39,537 bases of DNA from Deltaproteobacteria bacterium (lineage in GTDB: Bacteria; BMS3Abin14), in the NCBI GenBank assembly GCA_013151915.1, contig JAADHJ010000020.1, positions 1 to 39,537 of the forward strand. The letters run 5' to 3'. Every line of letters begins with the position of its first letter. Within the stretch, counting starts at the first letter, position 1. The notes under the pieces are model-generated. The model was not told the DNA's origin, did not search any database, and saw nothing but the letters and a program-made list of their open reading frames with translations. Positions 6,181-36,188 of this stretch are shown here, piece by piece. A program made the position numbers and the translations under genes.

Positions 6181-6430
6181 GGGGACGTAGTTAAATAGTT
6201 GATGGACTCTTTGCAAGTCCATCAACGCGCCCGGGGAGGGCGCCCAAATCGATGGTTTGTCCCGCAAGTCATTGATTTGCGGGACAAACCGTTGATTTGT
6301 GAGGAAAGTGAAAATGACACTTTTCGCTTTCCGTGGAGTAAAAAGCGGCGAATGGACTTTTTACGACCCTATCAACAGTTAAGTTGTGGGGCGCCGGGCA
6401 TGTTTTACTTAACAACTTGACTACGTCCCC
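6181..6430. repeat. 250-bp element with terminal inverted repeats, including a hairpin-repeat copy
   Basis: The left end GGGGACGTAGTTAA is mirrored by TTGACTACGTCCCC at the right end. Inside lies a long copy of the hairpin repeat (6199-6375): GATGGACT/AGTCCATC arms, a GC-rich GCGCCC tract, two inverted copies of GGTTTGTCCCGCAA, then TTTCGCTTTCCGTGGAGTAA and TTTTTACGACCCTATCAA. The right end overlaps the tRNA-Leu promoter. No ORF of note is inside, so it looks like a non-autonomous element. Confidence 0.6.
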
Positions 6431-6445: not shown

Positions 6446-6532
6446 GCCGGAGTGGCGGAACTGGTAGACGCGCTGGACTCAAAATCCAGTGATTTTCGGG
6501 TCGTGAGGGTTCGAATCCCTCCTCCGGCACCA
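6446..6532 (+). tRNA. tRNA-Leu (anticodon CAA)
   Basis: This is an 87-nt class II tRNA. The acceptor arms GCCGGAG and CTCCGGC pair over 7 bp, and the 3' CCA is encoded. The anticodon stem CTGGA/TCCAG holds the loop CTCAAAA, giving anticodon CAA for UUG codons. A long variable arm (GATTTTCGGGTC) and the T-loop GGTTCGAATCC fit leucine. Confidence 0.97.
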
Positions 6533-6648
6533 CTTTGACCACCTCACAATCCTTATAATTTCCTCCTTCCATGAACCAAAAATCAATGCGAAGTCCGACA
6601 GGCAGGTCCACATAAAGAAGCGGACTCCTTTTTCCGGTTATTTCTTCT

Positions 6649-6680
6649 GTAACGTTTCCGATTGAAGATTGTCCAAAGGG
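6649..6680 (+). promoter_or_regulatory. Probable ECF-sigma promoter of the exported repeat protein
   Basis: GTAAC at 6649-6653, 17 bp, then GTCCAAAGGG at 6671-6680. The same pentamer, the same spacing and a near-identical -10 region (GTCTAAAGGG) occur before the sigma gene at 7456-7487. Both -10 regions are preceded by GATT and followed by TAA and a short ACAC-containing run. -10 boxes of the GTC type are usual for ECF sigma factors. The next gene starts about 100 bp downstream. Confidence 0.65.
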
Positions 6681-6784
6681 TAAAAAACACATGAACGGTG
6701 GTGTTAAATGGGAAGGTTGATCAAGAGCACCCTTTCCAACTGTAAACGGAGAGTCAATAAAGACCGGAAATGGAGGAAAAAACG

Positions 6785-7363
6785 ATGAAACAGGTAAAAA
6801 TTATGAAACAGCGATTGACGAATGACAAGATAATTGTTTTATCAATTATTGCGGTGGCGATGTTTCTTTCCCTGACTATAACCATCGTTCCAGCCATGGC
6901 TGCGCCGGTTCTGTCGGACAGCCTGACACAGTTTATAACGGATAATGTCACATCGCCCGACATGAGAACTGAAGTATTCCAGAGTGTCGGCGAAGCGCTC
7001 GCAGCCGGGGCCTCTGATGCTGAAATCATGCAGATTATCACCGATTGCCTGACCAGTGACAGCAGCGGGAAGTCTGTGGCTGACGCCTTGGAAACACTGG
7101 TCGAAGCTAACGGCGACGCCAGTGAAATGAAGGACGGCAACATGGTCGAAGCTAACGACGACAGCGGCGAGATGAAGAACGACAGCATGGTTGAAGCTAA
7201 CGGCGATGTCAGTGAGATGAAGGACGACAGCATGGCCGAAGCTAACGACGCCGGCAGCGAAATGAAGGACAGCAGCATGGCCGAGAATGACAGTGACGCC
7301 TGCGATTATGGAAGTGACGGTGACGACGGCGGGAGCGGTGGCGGAGACGGTGGACACGACTGA
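6785..7363 (+). CDS. Exported acidic protein with tandem 15-residue repeats and a Gly/Asp-rich tail
   Basis: The 192-residue product has a signal peptide with a hydrophobic core at about residues 16-36 and an AMA/AP cleavage site. The mature N-terminal domain (LSDSLTQFITDNVTSPDM... through ALETLVEA) aligns with that of the exported protein at 9100-10014. Next come four 15-residue repeats of the form M-V/A-E-A-N-x-D-x-S-E-M-K-x-x-S, then a tail of Gly, Ser, Asp and a final His-Asp. The product is strongly acidic, so metal or polymer binding outside the membrane is possible but unproven. The start at 6785 has GGAGG 7 bp upstream, and the leader resembles that of the paralog. It follows a probable ECF promoter at 6649-6680. 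No known family is recognised. Confidence 0.78.
   Translation: MKQVKIMKQRLTNDKIIVLSIIAVAMFLSLTITIVPAMAAPVLSDSLTQFITDNVTSPDMRTEVFQSVGEALAAGASDAEIMQIITDCLTSDSSGKSVADALETLVEANGDASEMKDGNMVEANDDSGEMKNDSMVEANGDVSEMKDDSMAEANDAGSEMKDSSMAENDSDACDYGSDGDDGGSGGGDGGHD
7097..7276 (+). repeat. Four tandem 45-bp coding repeats
   Basis: Units begin at 7097, 7142, 7187 and 7232, each with a core like TGGTCGAAGCTAACG, and a partial fifth starts at 7277. They stay in frame and encode the 15-residue repeat of the exported protein. Differences between units are scattered through the codons, so the array is not a very recent expansion. Confidence 0.9.
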
Positions 7364-7390
7364 TCCACATCAGGTCTGAAACCTTCATAG

Positions 7391-7428
7391 GGCGGCTGAT
7401 CCTTATTCATGGGAACAGCCGCCTTTTT
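7391..7428 (+). terminator. Rho-independent terminator after the exported repeat protein
   Basis: GGCGGCTG (7391-7398) pairs perfectly with CAGCCGCC (7416-7423) and is followed by five T. It lies 28 bp after the stop codon, so the exported protein gene and the sigma gene are separate transcripts. Confidence 0.85.
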
Positions 7429-7455
7429 CTATTTCCCACGGCACATTGCCGCGCG

Positions 7456-7487
7456 GTAACATTTTCAGGTTTTGATTGTCTAAAGGG
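7456..7487 (+). promoter_or_regulatory. Probable autoregulated promoter of the ECF sigma gene
   Basis: GTAAC at 7456-7460, 17 bp, then GTCTAAAGGG at 7478-7487, matching the element at 6649-6680. The sigma gene ATG is 13 bp after it, so the transcript would be leaderless or nearly so. No Shine-Dalgarno sequence is visible before this ATG. Confidence 0.65.
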
Positions 7488-7500
7488 TAACCGACACCTC

Positions 7501-7998
7501 ATGGATGACGCACGGTTTCAATCAGAATACAAGCAGGTATGCGATGGGCTCTACACGTTTCTGACTCGAATGGCGAAGGACCCGGAAAGGGCTGCGGACA
7601 TCCTCCAGGATGCGGCACTCAGAGCCTACCGGTCCAGGAGGAAATTCAGGGGGGAATCCTCCTTCAAGACATGGATCTATCGCATTGCGATAAATACGAT
7701 GAAGAACCACTATGCAAAGGCGGGCAGGGCAAGGAAGTTGACCGAGACGGCACAACATCTGGGAAGGGCGAACACCCCGACCCCGGAGATGATTCTATCC
7801 GGCAGGGAGGATGCCGCCAGATTGTCCCAGGCTCTGGAACTTCTGGAGGAGGCCTACCGTGCGCCCTTCCTTCTGAAACACGTGGACGGCCTGTCCTATG
7901 GGCAGATCTCCGAGGTGCTCGAGATCGAAGAGGGTACGGCAAGGGTCAGGGTTTACCGTGCCCGCCATGCCCTCATGTCTCTTCTCAGGGAGGTGTAA
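7501..7998 (+). CDS. ECF-type RNA polymerase sigma factor
   Basis: The 165-residue product has only sigma regions 2 and 4, as in extracytoplasmic-function sigma factors. Region 2 spans about residues 10-78, with DPERAADILQDAALRAYRSRRKF and FKTWIYRIAINTMKNHYAKA. Region 4 spans about 108-160, with LELLEEAYRAPFLLKHVDGLSY and the helix-turn-helix GQISEVLEIEEGTARVRVYRAR. It would direct RNA polymerase to promoters such as the two GTAAC-17-GTCYAA elements found here. The next gene, probably its anti-sigma factor, starts one base after its stop. The signal it answers is unknown. Confidence 0.93.
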   Translation: MDDARFQSEYKQVCDGLYTFLTRMAKDPERAADILQDAALRAYRSRRKFRGESSFKTWIYRIAINTMKNHYAKAGRARKLTETAQHLGRANTPTPEMILSGREDAARLSQALELLEEAYRAPFLLKHVDGLSYGQISEVLEIEEGTARVRVYRARHALMSLLREV

Positions 7999-7999
7999 G

Positions 8000-8593
8000 G
8001 TGAAGTGGAAAGATCTGGACCTGGTCCACAGGTACGTCGATGGTGATCTCCAGGATGAGGAGAAGGACACATTCGAACTTCTGCTTGGTCGGGACCCTTC
8101 CCTCCAAAGGTACATCGAGCAGGTCGGGGCCATGGACCGGACAGCAAAGGGCCTTAGTGTTAGGAAAGCCCCTGACATCGCACTGCCGCGAGGTTTCTGG
8201 TCCTTTATCCGCGGTCTTCTGCCCCCGCTTGGTCCATTTGCTGCGGGAGCGGCGGTGGCCACAGCGTGTCTTCTGCTCGGTCTCGGAGCGGCTTCGTATT
8301 TCCGCCGGGTACCCGACCTTCCCATGCGGCCGGCCTCCTTCAGGCTCGTCTATTATTCTCCCGGGGCCCATTCCGTTTCCGTATTGGGTGACTTTAACCA
8401 CTGGTCCGGAGAGATCCCGCTGAAACCCCGCGGGAAAAAAGGCTACTGGCTGGTCGAATTAAATGTCCCACCCGGGGAATACCGATATGTCCTTCTCATA
8501 GATGGGGAAAAGCGTGTAGCTGATCCCACAGCGGACTATTTGATCAACGATGACTTTGGTTCGAAGAATTCTGTGGTCAGGATTGGCATCTAG
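8000..8593 (+). CDS. Membrane anti-sigma factor with a C-terminal CBM48-like domain
   Basis: The 197-residue product starts at GTG with AGGGAGGTG upstream, one base after the sigma gene stop, which suggests translational coupling. Residues 1-55 look like an anti-sigma N-terminal helix domain (LVHRYVDGDLQDEEKDTFELLL), but without the HxxxCxxC zinc motif of ZAS proteins. A transmembrane helix follows at about 78-101. Residues 113-195 match the glycogen-recognition (AMPK1_CBM/CBM48, isoamylase early-set) fold: VSVLGDFNHW, GYWLVELNVPPGEYRYVLLIDGE, VADPTA. This domain would face the periplasm, with the N-terminus in the cytoplasm holding the sigma factor. A sugar-polymer-sensing anti-sigma factor is the natural inference; the ligand is unknown. 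Confidence 0.82.
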   Translation: MKWKDLDLVHRYVDGDLQDEEKDTFELLLGRDPSLQRYIEQVGAMDRTAKGLSVRKAPDIALPRGFWSFIRGLLPPLGPFAAGAAVATACLLLGLGAASYFRRVPDLPMRPASFRLVYYSPGAHSVSVLGDFNHWSGEIPLKPRGKKGYWLVELNVPPGEYRYVLLIDGEKRVADPTADYLINDDFGSKNSVVRIGI

Positions 8594-8972
8594 GTCTGGA
8601 ACATGTCTCCTGTTGGTGGCGGGTTTCCTGTTTGGATGTGCCGGCGCCCCGTTTCGGACAGGTCCTGTTGCCGACAGGAACTTCATCCGTTTTTCGGTGG
8701 AGGCCCCCCGTGCCGAAAGGGTGTCTCTGGTCCTTATGAAGGCGCGATCGATTAAGGCGGCCATCCTGAAGGTGCCCGCTGAAAAACGGCACCGGGGGAT
8801 ATGGTCGGCAAGTCTCCGTCTCGCGCCCGGCCGCTATCGGTACTTTTTTATCGTTGATGGTTCCATCACCGTTGGTACTGGACGGGGCCGTTTGGAGAGG
8901 GATGATTTTGGTGGGGTCACGGGGGTCCTGACGGTAAAGGATCTCCCGAACGGCGCATTACAGGTCTATTAA
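8583..8972 (+). CDS. Lipoprotein with degenerate CBM48-like early-set domain
   Basis: The protein has a lipoprotein signal (CLLLVAGFLFGC, with Cys19 as lipidation residue if the TTG at 8583 is the start). The body repeats the fold of the preceding protein: RVSLVLMKARS, GIWSASLRLAPGRYRYFFIVDG, and RLERDDFGG near the end. The FNxW sugar-contact segment is missing, so polysaccharide binding may be lost or changed. Either start overlaps the anti-sigma gene: TTG 8583 by 11 bp, or ATG 8550 by 44 bp. Coupling to that gene suggests the two products work together at the membrane. Confidence 0.72.
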   Translation: MASRSGTCLLLVAGFLFGCAGAPFRTGPVADRNFIRFSVEAPRAERVSLVLMKARSIKAAILKVPAEKRHRGIWSASLRLAPGRYRYFFIVDGSITVGTGRGRLERDDFGGVTGVLTVKDLPNGALQVY

Positions 8973-8981
8973 GAGAAAATT

Positions 8982-9050
8982 GATGGACTTGTAAAAAGTC
9001 CATCAAGCGGTATATACGCGAAGCGTACATACCGGGGTGGGGGTGGAACC
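8982..9050 (+). repeat. Double-hairpin leader element, copy 1
   Basis: The first hairpin is GATGGACTT, GTAAA, AAGTCCATC (8982-9004). The second is CGGTAT, A, TACGC, GAA, GCGTA, C, ATACCG (9008-9034), followed by GGGTGGGGGTGGAACC. Two more copies lie at 17556-17624 and 22906-22970. The second-hairpin stems differ in sequence but still pair. It lies 50 bp before the next start codon. Confidence 0.75.
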
Positions 9051-9099
9051 TGGCAAGGAGACTTTTTCGAGGTTGTCAATATTGTTGGAGGTGAAGACG

Positions 9100-10014
9100 A
9101 TGAAGCAGCGGTTGAATACGGGTGGCGTGATCAACGGCGTGGTAATCACAGTTATGACTGTCATGTCGATGATCATCCTGTGCGCTCCGGCGATGGCTGT
9201 TCCAACCCTGTCGGATAATATAAGCCGTAAGATCGCCGAAACGATCGCATTACCCGACGAGAGAGACAACGTCCTCCAGAATGCGATCGCGGCTGTCAAA
9301 GCAGGTGTCCCCGAGGATATTATCGCTCCCGTTATCGAAAGGACTCTCGAAAATGGTGTAAGCGGCGATGGCCTTGTGGAGATGCTCCAGGCGCTGGCTG
9401 CCGCCCGGGAAAAGGACCTGCCTCCCGAACCGCTCGCCGGCAAGATCCTGGAAGGGTTGGTCAAGAACGTGGGCGAGAAATCCATAATCAGGGCAATGGA
9501 AAGGGTTGAGGAACGCATGGAATTTTCCGCCGGTCTTGCGAAAGGTCTTGGAATGAGCAAGGAAAAGAGAGAGGATCTGATAATTGAGACGGCTGGCGCC
9601 ATTGCCGCGGGTATGGACAGGGACTCCCTACGCGACATCTTCAGCGTCATGGCCGGGGATCGTTCCAGCGGGCGCCTGGCGCCTGTTCAGATCATGGAGA
9701 TGGTAAAGGCCGCCAGCGGGTATGGCGTCGATTCCCGTAAAGTCGGCAAATACGCCGCTGCGCTCATTGAGGATAAGGATGCAGACAAAGGCGATATCGC
9801 CAAATTTCTGAAAGATCTTTCAGAGAGAGCCTACAAGGGTATCTCCGATAATGATCCTGATGATATTGTTGAAAAGTATATGGAGAACATGTCATCAACC
9901 GGCGAAGACGAAACCGGCGATGCCATCGGTGAAGAGAATATGGCAGACGAGAACAACGGAGGGAGCTCCGGTGGTGGTGGGGAGCATAGTGGCGACGAAG
10001 GCGGTCCCCACTGA
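9100..10014 (+). CDS. Exported protein, paralog of the 6785 gene product, Gly/His-rich tail
   Basis: The 304-residue product has a signal peptide ending APAMA/VPTLSD, almost the same boundary as the 6785 gene product. The mature part is helical and acidic with a repeating pattern: DERDNVLQNAIAAVKAGVPEDIIAPVIERTLENG, later EDLIIETAGAIAAGMDRDSLRDIFSVMAG, then IMEMVKAASGYGVDSRKVGKYAAALI. These look like copies of one roughly 40-residue helical unit with a central AAxxAGxxxD core. The tail is Asp/Glu-rich, then Gly/Ser-rich with His (GGSSGGGGEHSGDEGGPH). Start chosen at 9100 with GGAGG upstream; this leader resembles that of 6785. No ECF-type promoter is seen here; the double-hairpin element precedes it instead. 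Family not recognised. Confidence 0.8.
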   Translation: MKQRLNTGGVINGVVITVMTVMSMIILCAPAMAVPTLSDNISRKIAETIALPDERDNVLQNAIAAVKAGVPEDIIAPVIERTLENGVSGDGLVEMLQALAAAREKDLPPEPLAGKILEGLVKNVGEKSIIRAMERVEERMEFSAGLAKGLGMSKEKREDLIIETAGAIAAGMDRDSLRDIFSVMAGDRSSGRLAPVQIMEMVKAASGYGVDSRKVGKYAAALIEDKDADKGDIAKFLKDLSERAYKGISDNDPDDIVEKYMENMSSTGEDETGDAIGEENMADENNGGSSGGGGEHSGDEGGPH

Positions 10015-10053
10015 TTTCCAGTCCGGATTTTTCGCCCTGAGGGAAGATCAACT

Positions 10054-10773
10054 GTGACAACCCTTGTTCCCATCGAAGTAACCTGTCTCTGCTGCGGCGT
10101 AACCTTCGACTCGCAAAAGGTTACCCATACCAACAATTTCGGCCCGGTGACGACCGATACCTTTGAAATGGCTGTCGGAGAACAGCCCATTCGTTTTCTG
10201 GTATACACCTGTCCCGGCTGCGGTTATACGAAAGCCTCTGCAGAAAACGGCTCCATGGACCAGGAGACAAGGCAGATCGTAGAGGAACGGATCACGCCAA
10301 AGCTTGATGGAATGGAAATTTCATCGAGCCGTAAATGGGAGTTCCTGGCTATTTTGAAGGAAGCGAAAGGGCTGAGCGATTTTGCCGTCGGTTCGCTCTA
10401 TCTTCGGGCTGTATGGTGTTCAAGTCTGGATGGACAAAAAGCTGACGAGCTGAAATACCGAAGGAAGGTAATAGAGTATTTCCAAAAGGCTTTTGAAAAA
10501 GAAGGCGTAATGGAAAACAGGTTTTATTGGACCGCCTACCTTGTGGGAGAGATGTACCGCCGCCTTGGAGACGGGTTAAACGCCCGGATATGGTTCGACA
10601 GAGTAATAGCTATGAACTACAAACACCCGGACAGGGCCTTTTGGGTGAAATGGGCCACGCAGCAGAAAACGGAACCGATGGAATACATGAGAAAACCGGC
10701 ATCACCCCCGCCTGAAAATGCGGCGAAGCCGCCCCTTCTGAAAAGAATGCTGAGCTTGTTCAAAAGTAAATAG
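10054..10773 (+). CDS. DUF2225-family zinc-binding protein
   Basis: The 239-residue product starts at GTG. The N-terminus carries two Cys pairs, CLCC (about residues 11-14) and CPGC (about 54-57) in the context VYTCPGCGYTKA, which would bind zinc. The rest is helical, with TPR-like segments (DELKYRRKVIEYFQKAFEKEG and YLVGEMYRRLGDGLNARIWFDRVI). This arrangement is that of DUF2225 proteins, which have no settled function. It lies 39 bp after the exported protein gene on the same strand and may share its transcript. No signal peptide is seen, so it is expected in the cytoplasm. Confidence 0.8.
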   Translation: MTTLVPIEVTCLCCGVTFDSQKVTHTNNFGPVTTDTFEMAVGEQPIRFLVYTCPGCGYTKASAENGSMDQETRQIVEERITPKLDGMEISSSRKWEFLAILKEAKGLSDFAVGSLYLRAVWCSSLDGQKADELKYRRKVIEYFQKAFEKEGVMENRFYWTAYLVGEMYRRLGDGLNARIWFDRVIAMNYKHPDRAFWVKWATQQKTEPMEYMRKPASPPPENAAKPPLLKRMLSLFKSK

Positions 10774-17497: not shown

Positions 17498-17555
17498 GCT
17501 TTCTCCTTTACCATTTTTTTTGGAAACACTGAACTTTGTTGTTATACTCGCGATT

Positions 17556-17624
17556 GATGGACTCGCAATAAGTCCATCAAACAGGACGAGCGCGGAGCGT
17601 GCATCCTGGGGTGGGGGTGGAACC
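17556..17624 (+). repeat. Double-hairpin leader element, copy 2
   Basis: The first hairpin is GATGGACT, CGCAATA, AGTCCATC (17556-17578). The second has outer stem CAGGA/TCCTG (17582-17586 with 17604-17608) and inner stem GCGC/GCGT round GGA, followed by GGGTGGGGGTGGAACCC. It lies 70 bp before the pentaheme cytochrome start. Confidence 0.75.
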
Positions 17625-17694
17625 CGGCATTTGTCCATCTGGTCCCGACAGCCATCGCAAAAACGAAACACAAGTGCGGCAGAGGAAGGTAAGC

Positions 17695-22154: not shown

Positions 22155-22907
22155 GTGAACGCCATCAACCAGGACCAAAGATCCGTCATAGAGATCAGGG
22201 ATGTCTGGAAGACGCTGGATGGCCACGAGGTGCTCCGCGGCATTAACCTGTCCGTCGGCGCAGGCGAAACCATGGTCATCATGGGCAGGAGTGGAAGCGG
22301 CAAATCGGTTCTCCTTCAGTGCATTATCGGATTGATGGTCCCGGATTCGGGCACGATAACCGTGGACAGGATGGAGGTGACCTCCTTTAAGACCGAGAGG
22401 GAATGGAAGGCCCTCTGGCTCAAGGTTGGATTTCTTTTTCAGGGTGGGGCTCTGTTCGATTCCCTGACCGTGGGCGAGAACGTTTCCTTTCCCATCCTCC
22501 AACACACGGCTTCGGGGGAGAAGAGAGCCTTCAGGTGTGCCATGGAACTGTTAAAATTGGTGGATCTTGAGGGTGAGGATGGAAAATATCCATCGGAACT
22601 CAGCGGGGGGATGCAGAAAAGGGTCAGTCTTGCCCGTACCCTGGCCCTGGGACCGAGTATCGTGCTTTTCGATGAACCCACGGCAGGGCTGGATCCGGTA
22701 ACATCTGATTCAGTGTCGCATCTCATTAAAAACCTGAATCGACAGGGAGGCAATACATCTCTCGTTGTGACCCACGATATCCGGTCGGCGTTTCACATCG
22801 CTGACCGGATGGCCATGCTGGAGGACGGGAAAGTACTCATGGCCGGTACGCCGGAGGAGTTCAAAGCTACACACCTGGAACAGATCCAGATGTTTCTTTA
22901 TGGTTGA
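22155..22907 (+). CDS. mlaF: Lipid ABC transporter ATPase MlaF
   Basis: The 250-residue product starts at GTG, one base after the mlaE stop. Seen: Walker A GRSGSGKSV (about residues 43-51), Q-loop FLFQGGALFDSLTVGENVSFP, signature LSGGMQKRVSLARTLAL, Walker B IVLFDEPTAGLDP and the H-loop TSLVVTHDI. It powers movement of phospholipid between inner membrane and the MCE subunit. Its stop lies within the first bases of a double-hairpin repeat that separates it from mlaD. Confidence 0.95.
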   Translation: MNAINQDQRSVIEIRDVWKTLDGHEVLRGINLSVGAGETMVIMGRSGSGKSVLLQCIIGLMVPDSGTITVDRMEVTSFKTEREWKALWLKVGFLFQGGALFDSLTVGENVSFPILQHTASGEKRAFRCAMELLKLVDLEGEDGKYPSELSGGMQKRVSLARTLALGPSIVLFDEPTAGLDPVTSDSVSHLIKNLNRQGGNTSLVVTHDIRSAFHIADRMAMLEDGKVLMAGTPEEFKATHLEQIQMFLYG

Positions 22908-22970
22908 AGGACTTGCAAAAAGTCCATCAAGTATGATGTGCGCGGAGCGTACATCATGGGGTGGGGGATG
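22906..22970 (+). repeat. Double-hairpin leader element, copy 3
   Basis: The first hairpin is GAAGGACT, TGCAAAA, AGTCCATC (one A-A mismatch). The second is an 11-bp stem ATGATGTGCGC/GCGTACATCAT (one G-U pair) round GGA at 22933-22957, followed by GGGTGGGGG. It sits inside the mla operon, 98 bp before mlaD. Confidence 0.75.
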
Positions 22971-23068
22971 GTTGATGATGCATGGTCAGGGTTAAGACCA
23001 TTCGTGCCTGCTGTTTTTGGGGGAAGTGAAATGCTCCGGGACACGTCCGGAAGATGCGGGAGAATGCG

Positions 23069-28569: not shown

Positions 28570-29270
28570 GCGTGCCTCCTTTGCGGTGGATGGTAATGAA
28601 GTTACCCTCAAAAAATGGTAGGATCAAGAAAATTATTACAAAAAATAACTATATATTACATTAATGGAGCCTTGTTGGAAGTCCGGCACCAATTCGGAGC
28701 ACGGGGTTTCACGCAGAAGGGCGTATTTTGCGGTGAATCAACCCCCCAGACCCCAGACCCTACTCTTAAAGCCTTTGCATTGGTTTTAGGGGTCTGTTAT
28801 CATTTTCGGATAGAAATTGTTCATGTTGATGACTTTGCAAAAAGTCATCAACGCGCCCATGTGCGGGGCGCTCAAATTGAAGATTTGTGAGGGAAGTGAA
28901 AATGACATTTTTCGCTTTCCGTGGAGTAAAAAGGCATAGAAGGACCTTTTACGATTCTATAAATATGGTTCATCCGGTTAATGCGTACCTTTATTATTAT
29001 TTTGCCGTCATTGCGAGGAGCATCGAGGGAAACGAGAGTGACGCGACAATCCCAGGCGGAGCTGAAAAGCTCGTCACGGCGCCCTCCGGCCGCTATGGGA
29101 TCGCTTCCGCCGTCGCCCTACAGGCTATGGCGGACAGGTCACATGGGTTACAGCTTCCGCCGTCGCTCTTCGAGCTATGGCGGGACAGGCGTGATGACAA
29201 ATGGCGGGGTATGGTCCTCATCCAGGTACTCATTTCCAGGATGAATCTATAAATATTAATTGGGGGATAA
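28570..29270. repeat. Long intergenic region made of repeats
   Basis: Upstream of the tup regulator lies an AT-rich stretch (28612-28670) that may hold its promoter. A forward hairpin repeat covers 28829-28966 (GATGACTTTGC/GCAAAAAGTCATC arms, then TTTCGCTTTCCGTGGAGTAA), followed at once by a full copy of the large repeat at 28967-29247. The open frame at 28887-29252 is only repeat sequence. No gene is seen. Confidence 0.75.
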
Positions 29271-35863: not shown

Positions 35864-36188
35864 TTTGGGCGCCCTTACATGGGCGCGTTGATGACTTTGC
35901 AAAACGTCATTAAACATGCTTCATCCGGTTAATGCGTACCTTTATTATTTTGCTGTCATTGCGAGGAACATCGAGGGAGACGAGAGTGACGCGGCAATCC
36001 CGGGCGGAGCTCATAGCAGCGCCCTCCGTCGCCTACGGGATCGCTTCGCATGGGTTACAGCTCGCGATGACAGATGGATGGCTTCTTGCGAGTCCGTCAA
36101 CCCTTGAACCTTGAACGATGAACCTTGAACGTTAATAGGGCCGTAAAAAGTCCATCAATGGGTGCGTTGATGACTTCTCACGAAGTCA
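35864..36188. repeat. Intergenic repeats before zwf end
   Basis: A partial reverse hairpin repeat lies at 35862-35912 (GGGCGCCCTTACATGGGCGC, GATGACTTTGC). A copy of the large repeat follows at 35915-36085. GAACCTT heptamers lie at 36101-36133. A further hairpin repeat at 36137-36193 ends in GATGACTTCT, CACG, AAGTCATC. The open frame at 35916-36107 is repeat sequence only. Confidence 0.75.

Follow-up and report, generated by a model that had tools for sequence, protein, structure and literature searches.

Conserved ECF-type promoter pair and autoregulated circuit predicted at an ECF sigma factor locus in a deltaproteobacterial draft genome

Positive autoregulation and an AAC sequence at −35 are classical hallmarks of ECF sigma factors, about 55% of which are predicted to be autoregulated (PMC8103513). 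In systems of the RpoE–RseA type the sigma gene has its own ECF-type promoter with an AAC-containing −35 element, the anti-sigma gene lies next to it, and extra envelope genes are included in the operon. The locus described here, which lies in a deltaproteobacterial stretch of 39,537 nucleotides (hereafter the window), is alike in each of these respects, but its −10 element is TGTCTAA, its −35 element starts with GT, its regulon appears to be very small, and its putative anti-sigma has a CBM48-type ectodomain and no zinc motif; no RseB- or RseC-like genes were seen. A carbohydrate-binding module on the outer side is also found in RsgI, a membrane anti-sigma of Clostridium thermocellum (PMC12203970) that acts there as a polysaccharide sensor. 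The partner of RsgI is, however, SigI, whereas here it would be an ECF sigma; RsgI modules include CBM3, CBM42 and PA14, and most RsgI proteins have a self-cleaving periplasmic domain that is not seen here, the two systems having their logic alone in common.

The closest described relative of the ectodomain itself is the glycogen-binding domain (CBM48) of the AMPK beta subunit, which is its best match in the PDB by sequence and among the top matches by fold. The ectodomain keeps the tryptophan of the FNxW motif and an asparagine near the end of the domain, but where AMPK has its second sugar-contacting tryptophan (QWVHDP) most orthologues carry other, varied residues, and the domain is here extracytoplasmic and fused to a membrane anchor. 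As one of the two binding-site tryptophan positions of AMPK is kept, binding of an alpha-glucan is possible.

An autoregulated ECF circuit is in itself of a known, ordinary kind. For a previously uncharacterized ECF sigma, from a lineage represented here by draft genomes only, the promoter pair gives the likely DNA target and the direct outputs, and the defined promoter and apparent two-unit regulon make the proposal testable with reporters in a laboratory host. The unusual part is a cassette of sigma, anti-sigma-CBM48 and exported helical protein genes, which recurs in several phyla. The features of the locus are collected in Table 1.

Table 1. Features assigned at the locus, with window coordinates.
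Feature	Position	Strand	Description or basis
Predicted promoter P1	6649..6676	+	−35 GTAAC 6649–6653, 17-nt spacer, −10 GTCCAA 6671–6676; upstream of exported gene at 6785
Exported acidic protein gene	6785..7363	+	translation, repeats, orthologues with acidic D/G tails
Intrinsic-terminator-like hairpin and T run	7389..7429	+	fold of 7370–7440, −26.4 kcal/mol; between exported gene and sigma operon
Predicted promoter P2	7456..7483	+	−35 GTAAC 7456–7460, 17-nt spacer, −10 GTCTAA 7478–7483; immediately 5′ of sigma gene
ECF sigma factor	7501..7998	+	165 aa; regions 2 and 4 only
Single-pass membrane anti-sigma-like protein	8000..8593	+	helical N-terminus, TM about 78–100, C-terminal AMPK1_CBM/CBM48 domain
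Lipoprotein, one CBM48 domain	8550..8972	+	PF02922 1.2e-5, above cut-off; lipobox-like LFGC
Second exported protein	9100..10014	+	all-alpha domain of 12 helices with a signal-type segment and a tail that is acidic and Gly-rich; paralogous to 6785 product

The promoter pair and its conservation

A preliminary description of this DNA had claimed two copies of GTAAC-N17-GTCYAAAGGG, and both are indeed exact, with a spacer of 17 bp in each: one at 6649–6680 (GTAACGTTTCCGATTGAAGATTGTCCAAAGGG; P1) and one at 7456–7487 (GTAACATTTTCAGGTTTTGATTGTCTAAAGGG; P2), each on the forward strand. The flanks which it had listed are also present at both sites (GATT before the GTC, GGGTAA after it, and ACAC some bases further), but AGGG, GATT and ACAC are not conserved beyond the genus, and the core that is kept reads tGTAACGtTT-N13-TGTCYAA, with a weak GTA behind it. 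No third copy of the long pattern occurs in the window at up to three mismatches, and the 2.27 Mb genome has no exact copy of it besides P1 and P2; these two are also the sole genome matches, at up to one mismatch, to the 13-base core GTAACG-N15-TGTCTAA. A genome search with the spacer lengthened by one base, used as a spacing control, gave no exact and 11 one-mismatch matches. At up to three mismatches the long pattern has 82 matches genome-wide against 233 for the reversed control, so that no regulon is readable from a scan at this threshold. A search of 6500–10100 for sigma-70 promoters returned three weak matches, at background level and none upstream of a start, and Rfam returned a tRNA and one sub-threshold match, nothing else; the tRNA-Leu ends at 6532, 5′ of P1.

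Six further genomes of the family carry orthologous loci (G001, G004, G005, G007, G008 and G009), of which G001 belongs to the same genus as the window genome; searches at order and phylum level gave the same 12 genomes only. The six relatives share the order of the window: the exported acidic protein gene, with a promoter before it and a terminator after it, then a second promoter and the genes for the ECF sigma, the membrane anti-sigma, the lipoprotein and the second exported protein. The site upstream of the sigma gene is found in all seven genomes, and that upstream of the exported acidic gene in all six in which this stretch is assembled (the window and five others). The upstream site of G009 is the weakest (GGAAC...ATCCAA), ranking 9 of 9,686 in its contig. 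The preliminary description had proposed a comparison of the regions upstream of orthologous sigma genes; both elements are kept in these relatives.

A weight matrix built from the other genera placed P1 at rank 1 and P2 at rank 2 of 78,984 window positions. Since the sites in this matrix had first been located by similarity, a de novo motif test was added, with nine 200-nt upstream regions from five genomes as input and the window and its genus left out. It returned TGTAA-N17-TGTCT with a mismatch sum of 3, compared with 19–20 for the best in 40 shuffles, and at up to one mismatch this motif occurs in the window only at 6648 and 7455, that is, at the two sites. On these comparisons, the similarity of the pair is not due to chance.

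When 15 sites are aligned, the box columns are almost invariant, at 1.1–2.0 bits, and most of the spacer has less than 0.4 bits (columns 12–20), so that sequence is retained in the boxes and has drifted outside them. The −35 box is GTAAC or GGAAC at 14 of the sites and GTAAT at the remaining one. The −10 consensus, TGTCTAA, departs from the classical CGT(C) in that GT is retained with T in place of C. CGT at −10 characterized the few ECFs of an early set and was later dropped as defining (PMC8103513), so TGTC at this position does not exclude an ECF promoter.

Sigma gene, transcription units and regulon size

The sigma protein matches Sigma70_r2 (4.1e-16, residues 16–76) and Sigma70_r4_2 (2.9e-14, residues 107–157) above cut-off, and its match to TIGR02937 (5.1e-27) also exceeds the cut-off. 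Regions 2 and 4 are present without region 1 or 3, which places it in group IV, and it may fall under an already existing ECF group number. The sigma gene of G001 (L061:9415-9684, G001:C13) has an in-frame deletion of approximately residues 44–118, joined at a repeated AYR motif and leaving 89 aa; both promoters and all neighbours are intact in that genome, and the deletion is either a recent loss or an assembly artefact.

The product of the 6785 gene has an N-terminal hydrophobic signal-type segment followed by a short helical region related to the 9100 product, and 45-bp tandem units at 7098–7322 encode 15-aa acidic repeats. Its leader is 108 nt long with a strong Shine–Dalgarno sequence (GGAGG; anti-SD duplex −9.3), and across the genomes the leaders of the exported acidic genes measure 56–108 nt with strong ribosome sites. 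The sigma ATG, by comparison, lies 14–24 nt 3′ of the −10 box in the seven genomes (17 nt in the window), with weak ribosome sites, which implies a leader of just ~5–17 nt. In G001, G005, G007 and G008 a hairpin similar to that in Table 1 occupies the corresponding intergenic position, and those of G001 and G007 show a clear T run. Together, the terminator between the units and the asymmetry of the leaders suggest two independent transcripts that would be translated unequally; the sequences themselves show the pair of sites and its conservation, the order of the genes and the unequal leaders.

In 12 genomes of the family, GTAACG-N15-TGTCTAA has 7 exact matches, each of which belongs either to this locus or to the region preceding an orthologous PilZ gene; with one mismatch allowed, the same holds for 12 of 17. 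The PilZ-domain genes with a site upstream are those of G003 and G005 (PF07238), which are orthologous at 66% identity and appear to be a third target in these two relatives; no site precedes the PilZ homologues of the window genome, G001 and G008. With P1 and P2 as the sole genome sites, and PilZ homologues lacking one, the regulon of the window genome seems to be very small and to consist of these two units. The genome-wide motif scan that had been put forward for finding the regulon thus returns two sites only, and points to a tiny regulon, not to a broad set of envelope genes.

The anti-sigma-like protein and a cassette in other phyla

The anti-sigma-like gene is co-directional with the sigma gene and 1 nt away from it, an arrangement repeated in the six relatives. 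Its ectodomain, at about residues 110–197, matches PF16561 (1.8e-10; 41.3 bits, cut-off 26.8) and PF02922 (7.6e-9; 36.2 bits, cut-off 22.4). The N-terminus has helices at 3–13, 19–31 and 33–50 in a low-confidence model, and its matches to known anti-sigma HMMs are weak and below cut-off. The zinc motif Hx3Cx2C is absent, with no conserved cysteine among seven aligned sequences; non-zinc ASDIs make up about 44% of class I anti-sigmas (PMC7406223). The protein has no plasmid match. The start of the lipoprotein gene overlaps the end of the anti-sigma-like gene, and the lipoprotein cysteine after the signal segment is conserved in relatives. L212, L213 and L214 (G007:C40, G008:C3 and G001:C11) encode another anti-sigma-like protein, which combines a CBM48 domain with a zinc motif of the form H..C..C; there the next genes are a relative of the exported helical protein gene and a multihaem cytochrome-like gene, and no ECF sigma gene adjoins.

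The 9100 product is predicted by AlphaFold2 to be all-helical (12 helices, mean pLDDT 85); it has no Pfam family and, by Foldseek, no PDB match at E 0.001. When named genomes were scanned with the anti-sigma alignment, pairs of sigma and anti-sigma-CBM48 genes emerged in Nitrospirota, Gemmatimonadota, Bipolaricaulota, Desantisbacteria and one unassigned MAG, and there a relative of the 9100 product is the next or next-but-one gene (E 3e-10 to 7e-3 among 5,779 ORFs); for the weakest of these relatives (E up to 7e-3) the assignment owes as much to their position, which is constant, as to the score. The motif LPxxPLxxKxxEGLAK is conserved in the exported helical proteins that follow such pairs in several phyla (L131-L140, L143, L128, L129, L136), which are a candidate new protein family. 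No GNAAC-N15-19-[GA]TC occurs within 260 nt before the open frame of the cassette sigma genes of the other phyla, as would be expected if promoter specificity has diverged.

No description of this cassette, or of an anti-sigma with a CBM48 domain, was found in the literature searched, the scope of which did not extend to the ECF classification (10.1093/nar/gkaa1229). Tentatively, and with somewhat less than even confidence, the locus may represent one branch of an ECF cassette that spans several phyla and is so far undescribed (sigma, CBM48 anti-sigma, exported helical protein) and that would sense an extracytoplasmic glucan-like polymer or its own exported protein; the acidic paralogue, behind a promoter of the same type, would have been gained in this family as the main output.

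Proposed circuit and rival explanations

P1 and P2 are, with high probability, promoters read by the ECF sigma of 7501–7998, which would be autoregulated. A near-identical pair kept in related bacteria makes it most likely that this sigma activates both itself and the secreted acidic protein; conservation in relatives with the same sigma gene supports what the preliminary description had proposed, both for ECF-type promoters with sigma autoregulation and for sigma control of the exported acidic repeat protein. That this sigma recognizes the sites, that the putative anti-sigma acts as one, and which way the circuit responds are points that we infer. In the proposed circuit, the anti-sigma would hold the sigma at the inner membrane, with its outer domain a beta-sandwich of the AMPK/CBM48 type, until a signal inactivates it, probably via proteolysis, and the sigma is freed. 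P2 would then drive the sigma's own operon (sigma, anti-sigma, CBM48 lipoprotein and exported helical protein), and P1 the exported acidic protein on a separate, terminated transcript. Given its short leader and weak ribosome site the sigma would rise modestly, and the secreted product, with its long leader and strong site, would rise strongly. Conceivably a polymer of the envelope, glucan-like in nature, serves as the signal, or the exported proteins do so, though we regard this as less likely than not. Overall, the locus most likely encodes a small self-contained envelope-sensing circuit. Counting against this explanation are the motif in G003, the TGTC at −10, the sigma deletion in G001, the weak site in G009 and the weak anti-sigma scores.

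The sites might alternatively be such promoters read mainly by another ECF sigma, the neighbouring sigma gene being merely a target. The window genome encodes four or more ECF-like genes, the promoters of ECF sigmas overlap in their sequences, and G003 carries the motif before its PilZ gene with no sigma gene found there. In G003, however, a fragment of the cassette (the end of the second exported gene) lies directly downstream of an N gap in the assembly, and in the window genome the motif is near none of the other ECF genes. Moreover, family genomes without the cassette still carry other ECF sigma genes, yet the motif is absent from two of them (G002 and G011) and occurs in G006 and G010 as one-mismatch strays only, which makes this alternative improbable.

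A conserved, spaced pair of boxes could in principle also be a two-box binding site, that is, an operator of a separate DNA-binding regulator and not a sigma promoter. This we consider very improbable: neither box repeats the other in inverted or direct orientation, the geometry of a promoter is matched by the 17-nt spacing, the AAC at −35 and the distance from −10 box to sigma ATG in the seven genomes, and the gene conserved next to the site encodes an ECF sigma and no other regulator. Least probable of all is that the pair is a remnant of gene duplication or of a repeat; interspersed repeats abound in the genome, with several families in the window, and the 6785 and 9100 genes encode paralogues, but the 9100 gene has no such site, the spacers vary freely while the boxes are kept across genera, and the window genome has just two copies. 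Recognition by the adjacent ECF sigma is therefore the reading that we prefer.

Three interspersed repeat families were noted in the window. One, with GGACTTTTTACGACCCTATCA, is represented at 2531–2621, 6285–6375 and 28873–28963 and at 2600, 6354, 15502, 24942, 27620 and 36133; it has six near-copies in the window and none in shuffles, and similar stretches lie just upstream of the sigma gene in G009 and G004. Another lies at 181–256, 28994–29069 and 35942–36017, and a further one, containing an inverted TTGATGGACTT...AAGTCCATCAA hairpin, at 8979–9055, 17553–17629 and 22903–22979.
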